A stretch of DNA of 64,000 nt from Persicimonas caeni (GTDB lineage: Bacteria > Myxococcota_A > Bradymonadia > Bradymonadales > Bradymonadaceae). A program made the translations under genes and the position numbers. Shown here piece after piece: positions 37,967-63,124 of the stretch. Below the pieces are notes generated by a model, which had not been told where the DNA came from, searched no databases, and saw only the letters and a program-made list of their open reading frames with translations. The stretch is from contig NZ_CP041186.1 of assembly GCF_006517175.1 (NCBI RefSeq), forward strand, positions 3,251,074 to 3,315,073. Reading direction: 5' to 3'. How positions within the stretch are numbered: position 1 is the first letter of the stretch; each line of letters starts with the position of its first letter.

Positions 37967-38024
37967 GTAGCGCGCGGATGTCGAGGCGAACGCTTGCAGA
38001 AGTTGTGGCGCCGTCTACTTGGGG

Positions 38025-38135
38025 GCGCCTGCACTGCGGCGCCAAACTACGATTTGAGGGTCGTTTCAACGCAACACATAAGCCACATCGAAACGACCCT
38101 CAAATTGCCTCTCTGAGCGGGCGTGGTTTGCCCGC
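38025..38135. repeat. palindromic repeats between convergent genes
   Basis: In the 182-bp gap: a perfect 16-bp stem (ATTTGAGGGTCGTTTC at 38052-38067 with its complement at 38090-38105) and a GCGGGC / GCCCGC hairpin (38117-38135). The sequence AAACTACGATTTGAGGGTCG matches the arm of the repeat elements at 59210 and 61034. The remnant GCGCCGTCTACTTGGG at 38029 resembles the left end of the 48955 foldback. Confidence 0.65.
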
Positions 38136-38148
38136 GCCTCAAATAGAC

Positions 38149-40968
38149 TTACGGCACATCCAACACGGCCGTGCCGGTGCCCGTATTGCCGTAGGCGTCA
38201 GTCACCGTCACCTCGACGGTGTAGCTGCCAGGCGAAAGCGACGAGACATCGGCGCTAAAGCGCGTGACCGGAATGCCGTCACGCCCGTCGACCGTCTCGG
38301 GGTTCGTCGCCAACGTCAGGTCGGCGCCCGTCAACGAGGCGACCTCGGTCGCGCCGTCCATCACCCGCACGGTCACGTCGTCGGCGCTGACGTCCTCGCC
38401 GACCACCAGCGGCGCCGAGATGCCGGCGCCCGCACGCGGGTGGCGCATCCGGAAGTTTCCGGTGACGCGGCCCGGATCTTCAGACGTCCCTTCGTACCGA
38501 AGGCGCGAGGCAGCCGGGTAGCCGAGCCGGCCTTCGACGGCGGTCCCCGTGGAAGTCACCTCGACCTCGACGGTGTCGGTCGCGACCACCTCGAAGACGC
38601 CGCTGGTCGCCTCGTAGCTCTGACGAGCCTCGTTGTCGTCGAGGTAATGTCCTTCGACGCGGAAGCGATACTCCCCGGTGGGGAAATTCTGCAGCTCTTC
38701 CCAGCGCACCGCCCACTCCCAATCGTCGCCGTTCTTGCGCCGACGGGTGAGCATGACGGGCTCGCGGTTGCTGTAGGTGCGCTTGCTCACGGTTTCGACG
38801 GCCTCGAAGGTGTCGCCGTTTTTCTTCTCGAGCACCACCAGCGGGGCCTGAGGCATCTCGGCGCCGGGGTCGCCGCCGACCCACGCCACGTCGATCGACT
38901 CGAGTCGGCTGACCGTCGCGGGCGGCTCGTCGACGAAGGTGCCCATGTTGGCCGCGTTGCTCGTCTCGACCGGGAACGGGCTCTCGTCGATGCGCGAGAA
39001 CTCGGTGGGCAGCGCGGCCGGAAGCGCCGGCTCGACGCCGCCGTCAGTCAGCTTGCTGACCGTCTCCATGGCGCGGGCGACCAGGAAGTCGCCGAATTTC
39101 CAGCCCCACACGCTCATGCCGGCCTCGTAGCCGCCCTGGCGCCAGCTAAACGCATAGTCGGGGTACTCGTCGATGGCTTTCGGGGTCGAAATACCCGGGA
39201 ACGGGGGCAGCTCGCCGCGCAGGTTCGACGGGGTCAGGTAGAACTGGTGGTCTTGAGCGTAGCCCCAGATCCAGGCGTCGAGCGGGTCGATGCCGAATTG
39301 GTCACGCGCCTCTTTGAGCACCTGCCAGCCAAACTCCATGGTCGCTTCGCCGGGAAGCGTGACCACGGTCAGCCCGCCGATGTCGAGGGCGGTCATCTGG
39401 CTCTTGGCGAAGAGGGTGATCGAGCGGTGGTGGTTGATCAGGTGCAGCGGCAAGCAGCCGCTCACCGGCGGGGTGATCGAGGTGCTGTAGTCGTCGTCGC
39501 CGTCCTCTCCGACACATTGCAGGCCGCCGAAATCGTACACGTCGCCCGGCGAGCCCTTGCCGATGGTGCCCACTTTCCACTCACCTTCGGCGTAGCCGAC
39601 GTTCTCGTAGGTGATCGGGAAGCGATGGGTGGCGCCGGCCAGCGAGATGTCGGTCTCGGTGGTCATGTCGCGAAGCGCGTCGATGGCGCGGTCGGCCAGC
39701 TCGTGGCCCACGGCCTCGAAACGCGCGTTCTCGCCGTGGCCCCAGCGGTCGCCCCGTGGCGACATGCTGCCGCCGTTTTGGTTGAAGTAGAGCACCGGCA
39801 CGAACCGGTCGTACTCCTCGCCCAGGCGCGCTTCAAGGGCGCGCTCGGCGCCGGCGGGGGCGTCTCCGGTAAAGTAGTTGTCGCCGTGGACCGTGCCGTG
39901 GGTGCCGTAGCTGATCATGACCGCCCGCGGGTTACCCTCGGCGTCGTCGATGCGGAAGAGCAGCAGCCGGTTGTCGTCGAACGGGGGCGTGGCGCTCCAG
40001 CGGTCGCTCGAGATGTAGTCGTCGGTGTCGTAAGCCTCGACGATCTCCCAGCCGAAGCGCGCCGGCGACAGGTCGTCGAGCGCAGCCTTGGCCGCCTCGA
40101 AGGTCGAGTCGACAGTCCAGTCGAAGACCTGCTGGCTGAACTCGTCGGTGCCGAAGCTTCCCAGCGGCAGGGCGGTGTCGTCCGGCAGTTGCCAGTAGCG
40201 CGTCGGGCCCGAGTGGGTGTGCGTGCCCGAAATGATCAGGCTGTCGCGCCAGTCTTTGCCCGTCTCCTCCTGGAGCTTGCGGGCGACCGCCTCGTGCAGC
40301 GGCATCGTCGGGAAGATCACCGGCAGGCGAATGAACATGAGCTGGCGCTCGCCGTTGTCGAGCACGAACGCGCGAGCGTACAGCCCGTGCATCTGGCCGT
40401 CGGTCTCGCGCAGCGACTCGACGTAGCGGCCGTCGCCCGAGGCCGAGCGCGAGCCGTAGCCGCCCTGCGACAGACCGATGGGGAAGGTCATCAGCGTGTT
40501 CGCCACGCCCGCCTCGAGCGGCTCGCGGGAATCACCGCCGGGATGTTCACCGGTGATCTCGCCTGTGAAGTCGACGCAGCTTCCGTTGTCGGCGCAGACC
40601 TGCCCGTCGGCGCAGTGTTGGTCGACCAGGCAGGCGATCCGGCAGTGCTCTCCGCCGCACACCGCGCGTCGTCCGAGCCCCGGCTCGAGCGCCTCGAACG
40701 CCTCGACGCACGTGTCCCAGTCTCGCAGGCCGCCACACTCGGGCGCCTCGACGCACACGCCGCCGTGACACATCGTGCCCTCGGCGCAATCGGCCTGCAG
40801 CTCACACGAGGCCGGACCGGTGTCGTCGTCGACATCCGAGGTGCCGTCGGCGCTCACGTCGCCGGCGTCGGGCTCGAGGTTCTGGTTGTTATTCTGGGAC
40901 GAATCGGGATCAGAGCAGCCGGCGACGAGCGCCAGGCAGACAAACAACAAGACAAGAATGCGCCGCAC
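38149..40968 (-). CDS. neutral ceramidase-like lipoprotein
   Basis: 939 aa from the GTG at 40968, chosen because GAGGAG precedes it and the signal peptide starts there. Lipobox LVAGC (Cys17). A Cys-rich segment with 12 cysteines (about 50-135; CELQADCAEGTMCHGGVC style) follows. From about residue 165 the neutral/alkaline non-lysosomal ceramidase fold is seen: FPIGLSQGGYGSR, LYARAFVLDNG, IISGTHTHSGP (zinc-type His pair), ISYGTHGTVHGDN, TVVTLPGEATMEFG. The C-terminal third has beta-sandwich domains (SLSPGSYTVEVTVTDAYGNT). The family cleaves the amide bond of ceramide. The substrate here is uncertain, but ceramides, if made, would be in the outer membrane or come from prey or hosts. Confidence 0.78.
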   Translation of the reverse strand: MRRILVLLFVCLALVAGCSDPDSSQNNNQNLEPDAGDVSADGTSDVDDDTGPASCELQADCAEGTMCHGGVCVEAPECGGLRDWDTCVEAFEALEPGLGRRAVCGGEHCRIACLVDQHCADGQVCADNGSCVDFTGEITGEHPGGDSREPLEAGVANTLMTFPIGLSQGGYGSRSASGDGRYVESLRETDGQMHGLYARAFVLDNGERQLMFIRLPVIFPTMPLHEAVARKLQEETGKDWRDSLIISGTHTHSGPTRYWQLPDDTALPLGSFGTDEFSQQVFDWTVDSTFEAAKAALDDLSPARFGWEIVEAYDTDDYISSDRWSATPPFDDNRLLLFRIDDAEGNPRAVMISYGTHGTVHGDNYFTGDAPAGAERALEARLGEEYDRFVPVLYFNQNGGSMSPRGDRWGHGENARFEAVGHELADRAIDALRDMTTETDISLAGATHRFPITYENVGYAEGEWKVGTIGKGSPGDVYDFGGLQCVGEDGDDDYSTSITPPVSGCLPLHLINHHRSITLFAKSQMTALDIGGLTVVTLPGEATMEFGWQVLKEARDQFGIDPLDAWIWGYAQDHQFYLTPSNLRGELPPFPGISTPKAIDEYPDYAFSWRQGGYEAGMSVWGWKFGDFLVARAMETVSKLTDGGVEPALPAALPTEFSRIDESPFPVETSNAANMGTFVDEPPATVSRLESIDVAWVGGDPGAEMPQAPLVVLEKKNGDTFEAVETVSKRTYSNREPVMLTRRRKNGDDWEWAVRWEELQNFPTGEYRFRVEGHYLDDNEARQSYEATSGVFEVVATDTVEVEVTSTGTAVEGRLGYPAASRLRYEGTSEDPGRVTGNFRMRHPRAGAGISAPLVVGEDVSADDVTVRVMDGATEVASLTGADLTLATNPETVDGRDGIPVTRFSADVSSLSPGSYTVEVTVTDAYGNTGTGTAVLDVP

Positions 40969-46800: not shown

Positions 46801-47030
46801 TTGGTTCCCCACAAAATCAGATGGAGCGAAAGAACGTGACCTTCAATAAGTCAGACGCGGCGCGGACGGGATCATTCAGACGAGATATCGAAAAGCTCAC
46901 GAAAGCGAGGGCAAGATGCCCTCGCACCGAAACGACACCCGCCGCCTCTTCGGTGCGAGTGCATCCCTGCTCTCGCCTTCGAGGGCAAGATGCCCTCCCA
47001 ACGAAGAGCGCACCGAGTCGCGCACGCCGA
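46801..47030. repeat. palindromic repeats upstream of the propeller gene
   Basis: 230-bp gap. It holds a perfect palindrome GCGAGGGC-AAGAT-GCCCTCGC (46905-46925), the second copy of the 42-bp direct repeat (46936-46977), and a second GAGGGCAAGATGCCCTC palindrome (46981-46997). The first palindrome plus CACCGAA pairs with the start of the 42-bp copy (TTCGGTGCGAG), so the whole tract can fold back on itself. It also separates the mnmE stop from the propeller gene. Confidence 0.75.
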
Positions 47031-48413
47031 CTACTTGCCGACGCAAAACTCCGAGAAGATCTTGTTCAGGATATCGTCCGTCGACACCTGGCCGACGATG
47101 TCGCCCAGAGCGTCCAGGCCCTCGCGCAGGTCGAGCGCGACGAATTCGTGCTCCATGCCCGCTTCAACGGCCTCTTTGGCGCGCCCGAGCGCTTCCAGTG
47201 CCCGGTTGACGCACTCTAAGTGCCGCGTGCGGCTGAGCAGGACGCCCTCGCCGGAGGTGAGCTCGGCGGCAATGCCGGTAAGAACGCCGACCAGCTCGTC
47301 CATGCCCTCGCGCTCGCCGTCGGCGGCCAAGGCCGTCGGCACGACGTGCTCGAAGCGCTCCAGCAGCGCCACGTCGTCGGCGGTGAGCGTCGACGGCAAG
47401 TCGATCTTGTTGCGCACGACCACCGTTTCGATATGGCGGGCGAGTGTCTCTTCGAGGTCGCGGCGTTGATCGTCGTCGAGGCCTTGCTCTTGGTCGACGA
47501 GCCAGATGACCAGGTCGGCCTTGCTCTGCAGCTCGCGGCTTCGCTCGATGCCGATCTGCTCGACCTCGTCGGTCGCGTCGCGCAAACCGGCGGTGTCGAC
47601 CACGCGCAGGGCGACGCCCTCGAGGTGGATCTCTTCTTCCAAAAAGTCGCGGGTGGTGCCGGCGATCGAGGTCACGATCGCTCGCTCCGAGCCGTGCAGC
47701 GCGTTGAAAAGCGTCGACTTGCCGGCGTTGGGCGGGCCCAAGATGACCACGCGCACGCCTTCTCGCTGGCGGCGGCCCTGGTCGAAGCGGCGCTTCAGGT
47801 CGCGAAGCTCGGCGATCACTTTGTCGACGCGTTGGAGCACCTCGTCGTGCTCGATCTGGTAGACGTGCTCCTCATGGGCGAAGTCGATGGCCGACTCGAC
47901 CAGCGTCACTGCTTCCATGGTGAGCGTGCGAAGTTCACGGATGGCCGCGCCCAAACTCCCCTGCAGGTGCTCCATGGCGAGCTTGTGCGCCGAGACGCTG
48001 GTCGCCTCGACCAGGTCGGCGACGGCTTCGGCTTGGGTGAGGTCGATGCGTCCGTTCAAAAACGCCCGCTCGGTGAACTCGCCCGGGCCGGCCGCGCGCG
48101 CGCCGCTCGCCAGGGCCGCGTCGAGCACGCGGCGCAAGATGATCGGGCCGCCGTGGCACTGGAACTCGACGACGTCGTCGCCGGTGTAGGTATGCGGGCT
48201 CTCCATGAGCACGCACAAGGCCTCGTCGACCAGGTCTCCGTGTTCGTCGTGGATGCGCGACAGGCGCAATTTGTGGGAGGGGTGATCGTCGGGCCAGGCA
48301 GGCACCAACGCTCGGAGCACATCGCGCGCCTCGGGCCCGCTGACGCGGACGATGCCCACGCCACCCCGGCCGGCCGGAGTGGCGATCGCAGCGATGGTCG
48401 TTGAGTCGATCAT
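47031..48413 (-). CDS. mnmE: tRNA modification GTPase MnmE
   Basis: 460 aa, usual length. The N-terminal formyl-THF-binding domain begins STTIAAIATPAGRGGVGIVR. The inserted G domain has GPPNAGKSTLFNAL (P-loop), AGTTRDFLEE, DTAGLRDATDEVE and VRNKIDL. The C-terminus is the catalytic FCVGK. With MnmG it installs the 5-carboxymethylaminomethyl group on U34 of tRNAs. Its start overlaps the jag stop by 4 bp. Last gene of the rpmH-to-mnmE series. Confidence 0.98.
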   Translation of the reverse strand: MIDSTTIAAIATPAGRGGVGIVRVSGPEARDVLRALVPAWPDDHPSHKLRLSRIHDEHGDLVDEALCVLMESPHTYTGDDVVEFQCHGGPIILRRVLDAALASGARAAGPGEFTERAFLNGRIDLTQAEAVADLVEATSVSAHKLAMEHLQGSLGAAIRELRTLTMEAVTLVESAIDFAHEEHVYQIEHDEVLQRVDKVIAELRDLKRRFDQGRRQREGVRVVILGPPNAGKSTLFNALHGSERAIVTSIAGTTRDFLEEEIHLEGVALRVVDTAGLRDATDEVEQIGIERSRELQSKADLVIWLVDQEQGLDDDQRRDLEETLARHIETVVVRNKIDLPSTLTADDVALLERFEHVVPTALAADGEREGMDELVGVLTGIAAELTSGEGVLLSRTRHLECVNRALEALGRAKEAVEAGMEHEFVALDLREGLDALGDIVGQVSTDDILNKIFSEFCVGK

Positions 48414-48904
48414 GCAGGCGAAATCGAAAGCTTGCGGAAGATCCCCTTGCCCTCGCTCTCGGTCTTGACGCTCGAATCTTCCTCCAGCGCCTTGTGGACC
48501 ACGCTTCGCTCGTAGCTGTTGAGCCCGGCGATGGTCACCTTTTTACCCAGGCGGGTGGCCACGTCGCGAAGCTCTTCGGCGACCGAATCGAGGCGCTCGG
48601 CGCGCTGGTCGCGGAAGCCGCTGACGTCGACATAGACCTGACGCTTGTCACCCACGCGCGACAGCGCGGCGCTCAAAAGCGTCTGGATCGACTCGATCGA
48701 CTTGGGCGCCGAGGTGCCCACGCCGAGCAAGATCTCGGCATCTTCGCCGCTGACGTCGAAGTACAGCTTGTCTTCTTTGGCCTCGCCGCTGACGTCGAGG
48801 TCGAAGTTCATGCGCTCGAAGACGTCGGCGAGCCACTGCTCGCCGAATTCAATCGCGTCGACTTCGGGCTGCTCATTCTCTTCGTTGGTCTGTTCGTCAG
48901 TCAT
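48410..48904 (-). CDS. jag: Jag/KhpB-type RNA-binding protein (KH-R3H)
   Basis: 164 aa. The N-terminal acidic tail is unlike the usual Jag_N domain, which appears to be absent. A KH domain runs at about 25-90 (YFDVSGEDAEILLGVGTSAPK), with an unusual VGTSAPKS in place of the canonical GRRG-type loop. The C-terminal R3H region is at about 95-160 (VYVDVSGFRDQRAERLDSVAEEL, LNSYERSVVHKALEED). The R-x3-H signature reads RSVVH. The position between yidC and mnmE fits Jag. A foldback repeat lies in the gap to yidC. Confidence 0.88.
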   Translation of the reverse strand: MTDEQTNEENEQPEVDAIEFGEQWLADVFERMNFDLDVSGEAKEDKLYFDVSGEDAEILLGVGTSAPKSIESIQTLLSAALSRVGDKRQVYVDVSGFRDQRAERLDSVAEELRDVATRLGKKVTIAGLNSYERSVVHKALEEDSSVKTESEGKGIFRKLSISPA

Positions 48905-48954
48905 TTTGGAATCCAGTTGTGTTTATCAAAAGAGTTGGTCTTGCAGAAAAGCAG

Positions 48955-49133
48955 CGCCATCTATTTGGGCAATTAAGGACATAGGGGCAGCGATTTGTCA
49001 CGTGCCTCCGATACGCAACCCATAGGGGCAGCGATTTGTCACGTGCCTCCGATACGCAACCCATAGGGGCAGCGATTTGTCACGTGCCTCCGATACGCAA
49101 CCCTTATGTCCTTAATTGCTTATGTAGATGGCG
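48955..49133. repeat. foldback element with three identical 41-bp tandem units (yidC-jag gap)
   Basis: Inverted arms (CGCCATCTAtttggGCAATTAAGGACATA type) at 48955-48983 and 49103-49133 enclose three exact 41-bp repeats at 48980-49020, 49021-49061 and 49062-49102, each containing GGGGCAGCGATTTGTCACGTG. The element fills most of the 266-bp gap between the yidC stop and the jag start, so it is transcribed if the genes are co-transcribed. It carries no transposase. Confidence 0.9.
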
Positions 49134-49170
49134 TGACGCCTCTGCAAGGCCACCACCATCGCACAATCAA

Positions 49171-50928
49171 TCACGCCTTCGCCGCCTCGATTTCTTCACC
49201 GCTGTACTTCTTCTTGACGTAGAACTGCTGGCCGACGCCGATGAGCAGGCTGAGTGCGTAGTAGAGCACCAGACCCGAGGGCAGGAAGATCATGAAGCCG
49301 GCGAACATGAACGGCATGATCTTCATCATCATCATCGCCTGCTGGTTGGTCGTGTCGACCGTGCTCATCTTCTGCTGGGCGAACATGACGATGCCCATCA
49401 AGACCGGCAGCACGTAGTACGGGTCGGGCTCGGCCAAGTTGGTGTACCACAGCGCGAAGTCGGCGTGATACAGCTCGACCGAGTTGTAGATCATGACGTA
49501 CAGGCCGTACAGAATCGGCATCTGCATGATCATCGGCAAGCAGCCGCCAGCCGGGCTGACGTTGTGCTCGCGGAAAATCTTCATCGTCTCTTCGGTCATG
49601 CGCTGGCGGTCGTCTTCGTACTTCTCTTTGACCTCGGTGAGCAGCGGCTGGACCTTCTTCATGCGCTCCATGCTCGAGTAGGCCTTCATGTTGATCGGCC
49701 ACAGCGCGCCACGAATCAGGAAGGTCAGGATGATGATCGCCAGACCCCAGTTGCCCACGAAGTTGTAGATCTTCTCGAGGCCCCAGCGCATCGGGCGCGC
49801 GATGAAGGCGAACATGCCGTAGTCGACGCTCTCCTCGAGGCTCACTGTGCCGTCGAGGGAGTCGTCGATGCCGTTGAGCACGTCGACGTCCTTGGGCCCC
49901 ATGAACAGTTTGTGCGACAGGGTTTCGGTCTGACCCGGCTCGATGGAGAAGCCGGAGTTGACGAGGCGCGTGCGGATATAGTCGCTGTCGACGACCTTGA
50001 GCTCGCAGCGCTCGACCGGCTTGTCGGGGATGGCGGCCATCATGAAGTAGCGGGTGTCCACCGCCCCCCACAGCGTCTCGCCTTCGTCGAAGCGCTGGGG
50101 CGAATCGAGCACCGAGTCGAACGACTCGCGCTCGATGTCCTCGGAGTTCATGCACACGCCCTCGACTTCGTTGGGCTGGAAGTCCAGGAAGCTCGATTCT
50201 TTGTTGGGGTCTTTCCACTCGAAGATGTCGAGCGCGACCGTGTCGACCAAGCGGCCCTTGTCGAGCAGGTTGGTGATCTGGACGTCCATGTCGACGACAT
50301 AGGGCAGATCTCTGTCGAGCGAGAAGACCTTGTCGATCTGGAAGCGCCCCTGCGGGTCGACGTAGCGGTACACGATCTTGTCGTACGCCTCGCCCTCGCC
50401 TTTGACGCTCTCGTCTTCGACGAGCTCGTAGACCGGCTTGCTGGGGAAGTCGACGCTCTGCTCGAGAAAGTCGAGCTCGAACGGATAGTGCTTGGCCTCT
50501 TTGGGGAAGCCGACGAGATCGCCTTTGGCCTGGTACTGCTCGGGCTCGGTCAGCTGGACGCTGGTCACGCGCGCCTGATCGTTGGTCAGGTGCACCGTGA
50601 ACATGTCGCTCTTGATGATGTCCTTGCGCACCGCGACGTTGCGCGGCTGGGGCGTCGGCTCTTGGGCCTCGGCCTGCGCATCATCGGCGCCACCTTCAGC
50701 CCGCGCGTCCTGCTGGGCCGCCTGTTGGTCGGCTCCTTCAGCGGCGTCGGCTTGCTTGTCGGCGCCCTGAGCCTCGTCGGCAGCCTCTTCGCCGTCGGCG
50801 GTCTGCTCGACGGTCTGCTCGCCGTTGGCCGCGTCCTCTTCGGGCATCGGCGGGGCGACAAAGGTCTGCCAGATCAACAGGACGGCCGCGCTGAGGACCA
50901 TCGCCAAGATGAAACGCTTCTGTTCCAT
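49171..50928 (-). CDS. yidC: membrane protein insertase YidC
   Basis: 585 aa. N-terminal signal-anchor (FILAMVLSAAVLLIWQTFVA), then an acidic Gln/Ala/Asp-rich linker (about 30-90), the large periplasmic beta domain, and the conserved core with helices around NWGLAIIILTFLIRGALWPI (the substrate-groove Arg is retained), then PVLMGIVMFAQQKMS and GFMIFLPSGLVLYYALS. Gram-negative type with a full periplasmic domain. It inserts membrane proteins alone or with SecYEG. Precedes jag on the same strand. Confidence 0.97.
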   Translation of the reverse strand: MEQKRFILAMVLSAAVLLIWQTFVAPPMPEEDAANGEQTVEQTADGEEAADEAQGADKQADAAEGADQQAAQQDARAEGGADDAQAEAQEPTPQPRNVAVRKDIIKSDMFTVHLTNDQARVTSVQLTEPEQYQAKGDLVGFPKEAKHYPFELDFLEQSVDFPSKPVYELVEDESVKGEGEAYDKIVYRYVDPQGRFQIDKVFSLDRDLPYVVDMDVQITNLLDKGRLVDTVALDIFEWKDPNKESSFLDFQPNEVEGVCMNSEDIERESFDSVLDSPQRFDEGETLWGAVDTRYFMMAAIPDKPVERCELKVVDSDYIRTRLVNSGFSIEPGQTETLSHKLFMGPKDVDVLNGIDDSLDGTVSLEESVDYGMFAFIARPMRWGLEKIYNFVGNWGLAIIILTFLIRGALWPINMKAYSSMERMKKVQPLLTEVKEKYEDDRQRMTEETMKIFREHNVSPAGGCLPMIMQMPILYGLYVMIYNSVELYHADFALWYTNLAEPDPYYVLPVLMGIVMFAQQKMSTVDTTNQQAMMMMKIMPFMFAGFMIFLPSGLVLYYALSLLIGVGQQFYVKKKYSGEEIEAAKA

Positions 50929-59049: not shown

Positions 59050-59481
59050 CGTTCACTCCAGTTGATTGCCATTATTAATTGGCCGCCCCCTTCTGGTGCC
59101 GGCGAGCCTCACAGATTGTGCTTACGTAGTGCTGTTCGTCCAATCTGGTGGGTGTTCGGGGCGTGTGTCAAGGCGGTCGGTCTGGTGGGAGTGGTCGGTT
59201 TCTATAGGTCTATTTGGGGGTACAAACTACGATTTGGGGGTCGACGAATTGGCTGCCACGCTGAATTGAGCGCCCCTCAAATTGTAGTTTGTCTGCCCAA
59301 ATAGCCGAATTGGCTGCCACGCTGAATTGAGCGACCCTCAAATTGTAGTTTATCTGCTCAAATAGACGCTCAACTCGGCTTGGTCGGTGGTTGGGGCGCC
59401 CCTCAAATTGTAGTTTGTCTGCTCAAATAGACGCCGATACACTCGACACAATCGCAAACAACCCCCTTCAGAGGTCGTACC
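59050..59481. other. 432-bp intergenic region with repeats
   Basis: Between divergent genes. The first 150 bp hold the gdh upstream region and nothing else I recognise. 59210-59430 is filled by repeats (listed separately). The last 50 bp lead into the beta-helix gene, whose TTG start at 59482 has AGAGG at 8-base spacing. Confidence 0.6.
59210..59430. repeat. inverted-repeat element with a partly duplicated arm
   Basis: Left arm 59210-59243 (CTATTTG..ACAAACTAC..TTTGGGGGTCG) faces right arm 59271-59304 (..CCCCTCAAATTGTAGTTTGT..CAAATAG). A unit of about 60 bp containing the right arm is repeated (59245-59304 and 59306-59365), and a third right arm follows at 59396-59430. Related elements are at 61034 and 38052. 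It is like a non-autonomous palindromic mobile element, with no coding capacity. Confidence 0.8.
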
Positions 59482-60960: not shown

Positions 60961-61033
60961 AGCTTTTGTGCCGCCGGGACATTTCCAGTCATACGTGAGG
61001 GTCGTTCTTTCGGGCGTGGGCGGTTGCCGGGAG

Positions 61034-61122
61034 CTATTTACGGCTACAAACTACAATTTGAGGGTCGTGGAATTGGCCGTCACGCAGAACCGAGCGACCC
61101 TTCAAATAGTGACGTATTAGTA
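61034..61122. repeat. second copy of the CAAACTACAATTTGAGGG repeat family
   Basis: CTATTTA..TACAAACTACAATTTGAGGGTCG (61034-61067), then GGAATTGGCCGTCACGCAGA and GCGACCCTTCAAATA. Both the arm and the internal segment match the 59210 element at most positions. The right arm is shorter or decayed. It lies just before the DUF1287 gene. Confidence 0.75.
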
Positions 61123-63005: not shown

Positions 63006-63124
63006 AAGACGAGGGCAAGATGCCCCCGCTCCGAGAAGACGAGGGCAAGATGCCCCCGCACCGAGAAGACGACGGCAAGATGCCCCCGCACCGAGAAGAC
63101 GAGGGCAAGATGCCCCCGCACCGA
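63006..63124. repeat. four tandem 30-bp repeats
   Basis: Four copies of a 30-bp unit (AAGACGAGGGCAAGATGCCC then CCGCACCGAG) at 63006-63035, 63036-63065, 63066-63095 and 63096-63124. Copies differ at one or two positions. Each contains the palindrome GGGCAAGATGCCC of the family found at 46905. The last copy abuts the uvrB stop. Confidence 0.9.

Follow-up and report, generated by a model that had tools for sequence, protein, structure and literature searches.

A dispersed REPIN-like element family in Persicimonas caeni, its likely Y1 transposase, and a triplicated hairpin tip between yidC and jag

The gap between yidC and the jag-like gene of Persicimonas caeni contains three perfect tandem copies of a 41-bp sequence inside a foldback, which raises the question of what this array is and how it came to lie within a series of translation and membrane-biogenesis genes. 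A first reading of the letters alone (the sequence-only reading) considered the position unexpected and suggested that the number of units could tune expression of jag and mnmE. Here, we analyze the array in its window (the whole 64,000-nucleotide stretch), in the genome and in related genomes. With a probability of about three in four, it represents the locally triplicated tip of a dispersed, non-autonomous REPIN-like element that is likely spread by a Y1 transposase encoded elsewhere in the same genome.

The array and its foldback

Tandem Repeats Finder, applied to the 64-kb window, assigned to positions 48980-49103 a period of 41, 3.0 copies and 100% matches, which bears out the three identical units described previously and makes this array one of the two top-scoring ones in the window. 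The arms were said to pair over about 30 bp, which is fair: the core contributes 15 contiguous base pairs, and further pairs flank it. The arm sequence AATTAAGGACAT, with one mismatch allowed, is found in these two arms and nowhere else in the 64 kb (0.04 occurrences expected). Folded as RNA, the foldback reaches -89.3 kcal/mol (z -6.05), and none of 200 shuffled sequences folds as well. The site was originally given as 48955-49133, which is the right place but slightly short because the feet extend the element to about 48937-49151. The features of the locus are:

about 48937-49151: whole REPIN-like element, 215 bp (133 bp + 2 x 41 bp), delimited by the consensus ends in the family alignment
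48938-48963, minus strand: left foot, a REP-like motif, TAG-NN-GGCG-N8-YN-GCARGGC, with one mismatch
48961-48993: left arm core, with 5 substitutions relative to the family core; read outward, its outer motif is CAAA and its inner motif CTATG
48980-49020, 49021-49061 and 49062-49102: three identical 41-bp units, the inner hairpin tip, triplicated
49095-49127: right arm core, with 1 substitution relative to the family core
49125-49150, plus strand: right foot, matching the foot motif exactly and with a G before it (GTAG)
49171-50928, minus strand: yidC (Pfam 60KD_IMP and YidC_periplas), the upstream gene, its stop about 20 bp from the element
48410-48904, minus strand: jag-like gene with an R3H domain, downstream of the element
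47031-48413, minus strand: mnmE, after jag

The jag gene of the window does not have the long charged N-terminal extension that is present in its relatives.

The dispersed family: architecture and genomic location

A DNA search of the genome (a single contig of 8,047,206 bases) produced 114 matches, and a covariance model, R1, built from 21 aligned standard elements, produced 112 with both strands counted; when the two sets were merged by hand, the family occupied at least 63 places. The same arms, which the sequence-only reading had proposed to look for elsewhere in the genome, are therefore widespread. The window element itself was scored by R1 at 3300099-3300224 with 65.1 bits (E 1.1e-14). 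The trace that had been reported near 38029 comes from a diverged cousin, which has the foot of the family but not the 41-bp unit: the foldback at 37990-38150 of the window carries the foot GTAG..GGCG..TGCAAG and an inner arm of ATTTGAGGGTCG type.

The standard element is 133 bp long and consists of a foot, an arm, a 19-nt loop, a second arm and a second foot. Read outward, the arm consensus is TCGCARCCCYTATGTCCTTAATTGCYTATGTAG, followed by the foot MR-GGCG...CTGCAAGGCC, where conservation ends. The loops vary from copy to copy. The consensus fold of standard elements has an energy of -30.1 kcal/mol, and covariation in the arm stem is weak (double changes in 2 of 28 pairs). We identified 41 inward-paired arms, in 27 of which the core spacing is exactly 52. 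The window copy has a spacing of 134, which equals 52 + 2 x 41, so it is a standard element with a triplicated inner tip, and the local expansion postulated by the sequence-only reading is confirmed. The other 13 off-standard pairs include 12 longer ones (62 to 116, ten of them at 82-99) and a single shorter one (45); several of the longer-spaced elements appear, by eye and from their spacing, to carry a diverged second tip. Among the family pairs, the window array is the only perfect triplicate. Another tandem expansion, this one of a whole element, is seen at 2706397-2707138 of the genome, where foot pairs recur three times with a 267-bp period.

Four larger relatives of the element, roughly 250 bp long and about 97% identical to each other, are located at the distant sites of 7.6 kb, 0.53, 5.33 and 5.56 Mb (L162 1472-1753, L164 1450-1731, L165 1414-1665 and L166 1467-1734); their near-identity probably points to recent dispersal. 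No obvious target-site duplications were seen by eye at the element loci that were read.

The foot motif TAGNNGGCGN8YNGCARGGC, with at most one mismatch, occurs 227 times in the genome, compared with 7 times for the reversed pattern. Among 100 distinct feet in the loci retrieved, 49 are joined to the arm of this family, one to an arm of the type associated with the transposase L073 (see below), and 50 to other arms, many of them of the L074 type, so the foot appears to be common to several palindromic families. TAG is present in at least 98 of the 100 feet, a count to be read with the search pattern in mind, as the pattern itself requires TAG with at most one mismatch. A canonical GTAG REP with a hairpin foot was considered for the element and not established: the foot tetranucleotide is GTAG in 75 of 110 arms (ATAG in 17, TTAG in 13, others in 5), the single-stranded DNA energy of a local foot hairpin is weak (-2.75 versus -2.12 kcal/mol for shuffled sequences), and no covariation was found in the 100 feet.

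Two short motifs within the arm, one preceding TCCTTA and the other preceding TAG, change together (Fisher 1e-11). Of 123 arms, 70 carry ATG/ATG, 15 carry AAA/AAA, 3 + 3 are mixed, including the left arm of the window element, and 32 have other combinations. The paired motifs may reflect two subfamilies between which recombinants are rare, or the two motifs may function together. In IS200/IS605 elements, the cleavage site is picked by complementarity with a guide (PMC8266576).

The elements lie between genes. Genes were called by a simple method based on codon usage, and none of the 51 element loci examined falls wholly inside one; 26 are in clean same-strand gaps, 9 between convergent and 3 between divergent genes, 11 overlap a gene end, mostly at an uncertain called start, and 2 were left unassigned. 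Elements in the 26 same-strand gaps lie a median of 20.5 bp from the preceding stop and 102 bp from the start that follows, and 19 of these elements are closer to the stop (p 0.029). Known REPs likewise lie near the 3' ends of genes (Di Nocera et al. 2013, PMC3733652). Contrary to what was first thought, the position between yidC and jag is ordinary for the family, since its members sit between genes and mostly just after the upstream stop. The element would have inserted a few bases past the stop codon of yidC, where an insertion can be expected to do least harm.

No match to the element was found in 38 related genomes, of which 20 belong to the same family, 5 to the same order and 13 to the same class, or in genome_contigs and viral_contigs, two collections that possibly do not include the P. 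caeni genome. Among the genomes searched, the family appears to be private to this one. A jag match was found in 17 of the 20 same-family relatives, with yidC in view in 15 of the 17, and the distance from yidC to the next start in these 15, estimated by eye, is about 6-120 bp, as opposed to 266 bp in the window.

A Y1 transposase gene flanked by family copies

The genome has 26 matches to Y1_Tnp (PF01797). Only one of these has family copies on both sides, at distances of 178 and 193 bp, whereas for the other 25 the nearest family copy is at least 2.8 kb away. The gene is:

L029 5004-5492, with its Y1_Tnp match at 4646629-4646982 of the genome (4.6466 Mb): transposase of 162 aa

For a random gene position, flanking on both sides has a probability of 7e-5. 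The copies on either side of the gene share 96% identity over 207 bp; they lie in direct orientation, and their feet point inward, not outward. This link to L029 comes from one locus in a single genome of the species and suggests that the L029 product, a Y1 (HUH-tyrosine) transposase, acts in trans and would copy or move the family as single-stranded hairpin DNA.

The L029 protein is similar to TnpA of ISDra2/ISHp608 (E 1.3e-6), its HUH and catalytic tyrosine regions align with those of ISDra2, and it scores 47.4 against the NCBIfam IS200 profile, below the cut-off of 55. Its tyrosine motif is YIAHQKDHH, it possesses WQ, and it does not have the Y---NP form. The HUH motif is NHTH in L029 and DHVH in three other short Y1 genes of the genome (L070, L071 and L072); the subclass 1.2 pattern is DH[IV]H. 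According to Quentin et al. (2018, PMC6006769), members of TnpAY1 subclass 1.2 have Y---Q--HH and WQ, are about 148 aa long and occur in low copy number; the subclass is listed there as having no REP, with most members from Cyanobacteria and Bacteroidetes. In a phylogenetic tree with many weak forks, L029 groups with L096 of a related genome, G019 (98/89), and is separate from both the IS200 references and the class-2 proteins. Named relatives of L029 in genome_contigs amounted to 38 stretches, none of which was confirmed. An IS200/IS605 insertion sequence was considered and rejected: the genome encodes six short Y1 genes, and the other five are at most 51% identical to L029.

Similar associations are seen for other short Y1 genes. 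Near-identical copies of a palindromic family accompany each of the transposases L072, L073 and L074, with a different family in each case; for L074, copies are found directly downstream of the gene and about 1.9 kb upstream of it. Two of these three families were searched and found to be dispersed, with 99 (the L073 family) and 80 matches in the genome. No repeat shared by the upstream and downstream flanks was found within 500 nt of L070 and L071. L029 and L070-L074 include several Y1 genes with a common upstream sequence, approximately ACGCAACGATTCGCC..GCCGAAAACC..TAG, possibly a shared control or recognition site. In the related genomes, loci of homologous genes have upstream/downstream flank repeats (E<1e-6) in 11 of 14 cases tested, as opposed to 0 of 18 jag loci; in two of these genomes, G014 and G008, the flank repeats have dispersed copies as well (18 and 17 matches, respectively). 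The Y---Q motif is present in 24 of 25 rows from this genome and its relatives, in a few of them with one H changed; L110 yielded no motif. A similarity search also yielded two genes on Bacteroidota plasmids that combine subclass 1.2 motifs with flank repeats.

The family could also be mobilized by another enzyme, such as one of the class-2 Y1 proteins, a different short Y1 protein or an insertion sequence acting in trans, in which case the pair at L029 would reflect chance or a partial duplication. Several families have the foot in common, and 8 of 20 class-2 Y1 genes have inverted flank repeats; another Y1 enzyme could therefore be the mover. We consider this unlikely, given the low random probability of flanking on both sides and the several related transposases that each have a flanking family of their own. 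As a separate observation, the genome contains nineteen longer class-2-like Y1 genes (L075-L093; Y---NP, NHFH; 315-518 aa as called), which resemble subclass 2.3 and several of which have inverted repeats in their flanks.

The putative mobilization by L029 would fit a known type of system. Because the Y1 gene is flanked by the family, related transposases have families of their own and the enzyme bears a subclass 1.2 signature, the family and its transposase are best read as a REPIN/REPtron-like system, a variant with a subclass 1.2-type enzyme. As in the REPIN/RAYT system (Bertels and Rainey 2011, PMC3116915), there is an inverted doublet with conserved short ends, a variable spacer and a predicted hairpin; the elements are intergenic and numerous, and tandem arrays are known; the cognate Y1 gene is flanked by copies, and several families coexist, each with its own transposase. 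In contrast to REPINs, the element described here is 133 bp long, with long conserved arms inside the feet and GTAG in the proportion given above (GT[AG]G in REPs), and the transposase is of the Y---Q--HH type, unlike the class 2 RAYTs with Y---NP.

Similarly, these genes match the published description of subclass 1.2 (PMC6006769) in Y---Q--HH, WQ, a length of about 150 aa and low-copy, divergent genes but differ from it in that they come from a Bradymonadales-like family and are accompanied by dispersed palindromic families. REP-like companions of subclass 1.2-type genes are new relative to the description by Quentin et al. (2018, PMC6006769). With IS200/IS605 (subclass 1.1; ISDra2, ISHp608), L029 shares the HUH/Tyr catalytic core; however, the genome contains no near-identical further transposase copies, the protein falls below the NCBIfam IS200 cut-off, and its flanks are complete palindromic elements, not a left end and a distinct right end. 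The TIRYT/TIRtrons (Di Nocera et al. 2013, PMC3733652) likewise consist of Y1 genes flanked by long repeats, some of them self-complementary and dispersed, but belong to a different protein class, and the flanks described here consist for the most part of a palindromic element repeated in direct orientation. A search of openly accessible journal papers found no publication on repeats in Bradymonadales; Myxococc, Bradymon, IS200 and RAYT are all absent from the main text of the RepRanger paper (PMC12306157).

In a broader and more tentative interpretation, to which we give somewhat less than an even chance, subclass 1.2 would be the transposase of a REPIN-like world of its own, in Bradymonadales and possibly Bacteroidota, with a private palindromic family per enzyme, several of them on a shared foot, and with arm motifs that covary like the guide and cleavage site in IS200/IS605-type single-strand cutting. 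A group of HUH enzymes without a known DNA substrate would gain a concrete candidate substrate, and the covarying arm motifs would offer a natural series for guide/cleavage-site pairing. In this predatory bacterial lineage, REPIN-like elements seem to have been spread by an IS200-type rather than a RAYT-type enzyme.

Regulation, copy number and other repeats of the window

The array might alternatively be a co-opted RNA element transcribed together with yidC-jag-mnmE, a 3' stabilizer, RNase III site or attenuator, with the number of units tuning downstream expression. It sits within a same-strand gene series, it has the strong RNA fold described above (z -6.05), and the family is biased to positions just after stops, as are known REPs (PMC3733652). 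However, that bias is equally expected from avoidance of damage, the same hairpin occurs at 60-odd unrelated places, and neither a promoter nor an intrinsic terminator (GC hairpin and T run) was found at the array; we regard this explanation as quite unlikely. No known RNA family could be assigned: the only Rfam hit was RF02634, with 20.3 bits versus 100 needed. None of the results favors tuning of jag or mnmE by unit number; the array probably does not serve as a dedicated switch of the neighboring genes, and any effect on the jag-mnmE mRNA may be incidental. An ordinary mobile-element insertion with expansion of its tip takes the place of the regulatory guess. After insertion, the tip would have been triplicated locally, by replication slippage or template switching.

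The triplication could also be an artefact of short-read assembly, with a different true copy number. The paper on strain YN101 describes Illumina PE150 sequencing only, with gap closing (PMC7188933), and the array comprises 124 bp of perfect repeat. On the other hand, the assembly is one 8.05-Mb contig, reads of 150 nt can just span 124 bp, and other elements have loop enlargements of their own (spacings 82-99), which makes such an artefact distinctly improbable. If the genome is that of strain YN101, the copy number of three is provisional.

Finally, the sequence-only reading noted on the minus strand of each unit the string GGAGG-CAC-GTG followed by a 14-codon frame whose stop overlaps the next start, and allowed that this regularity could be due to chance:

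48897-49083, minus strand: GTG mini-frames in a chain (14, 14 and 34 codons long), considered accidental

Two GTG frames of 14 codons, which start at 49083 and 49042, do exist, with TGA overlapping the next GTG, but the third (start at 49001) has 34 codons and runs into jag, its stop at 48899-48897 covering bases 6-8 of that gene. Of 41 family elements, 1 has a loop that contains GGAGG together with a start codon, and the same geometry arises in 3.9% of shuffled 41-mers with a 4-nt Shine-Dalgarno core and in 1.0% with a 5-nt core. The mini-frames look accidental, and a translationally coupled mini-gene leader, with GGAGG-CAC-GTG and 14 codons per unit and a last frame that enters the start of jag, was rejected as hardly credible on these counts; although the frames exist as described, any open frame that reaches the jag start ends there because ATGACTGA has stops in both other frames.

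Other repeats in the window belong to different families. The 61-bp x3 array at 59207-59430 and the sequence at 61016-61067 are members of the dispersed palindromic family of the L073 transposase, and a GC-rich repeat at 42138-42229 matches the flanks of the L072 transposase and is also found at L043 2977-3038. An array of four 30-bp units at 63006-63124 appears to represent another dispersed repeat, as its unit recurs at 46898-46935, on both flanks of the Y1 gene in L094, and in L035.
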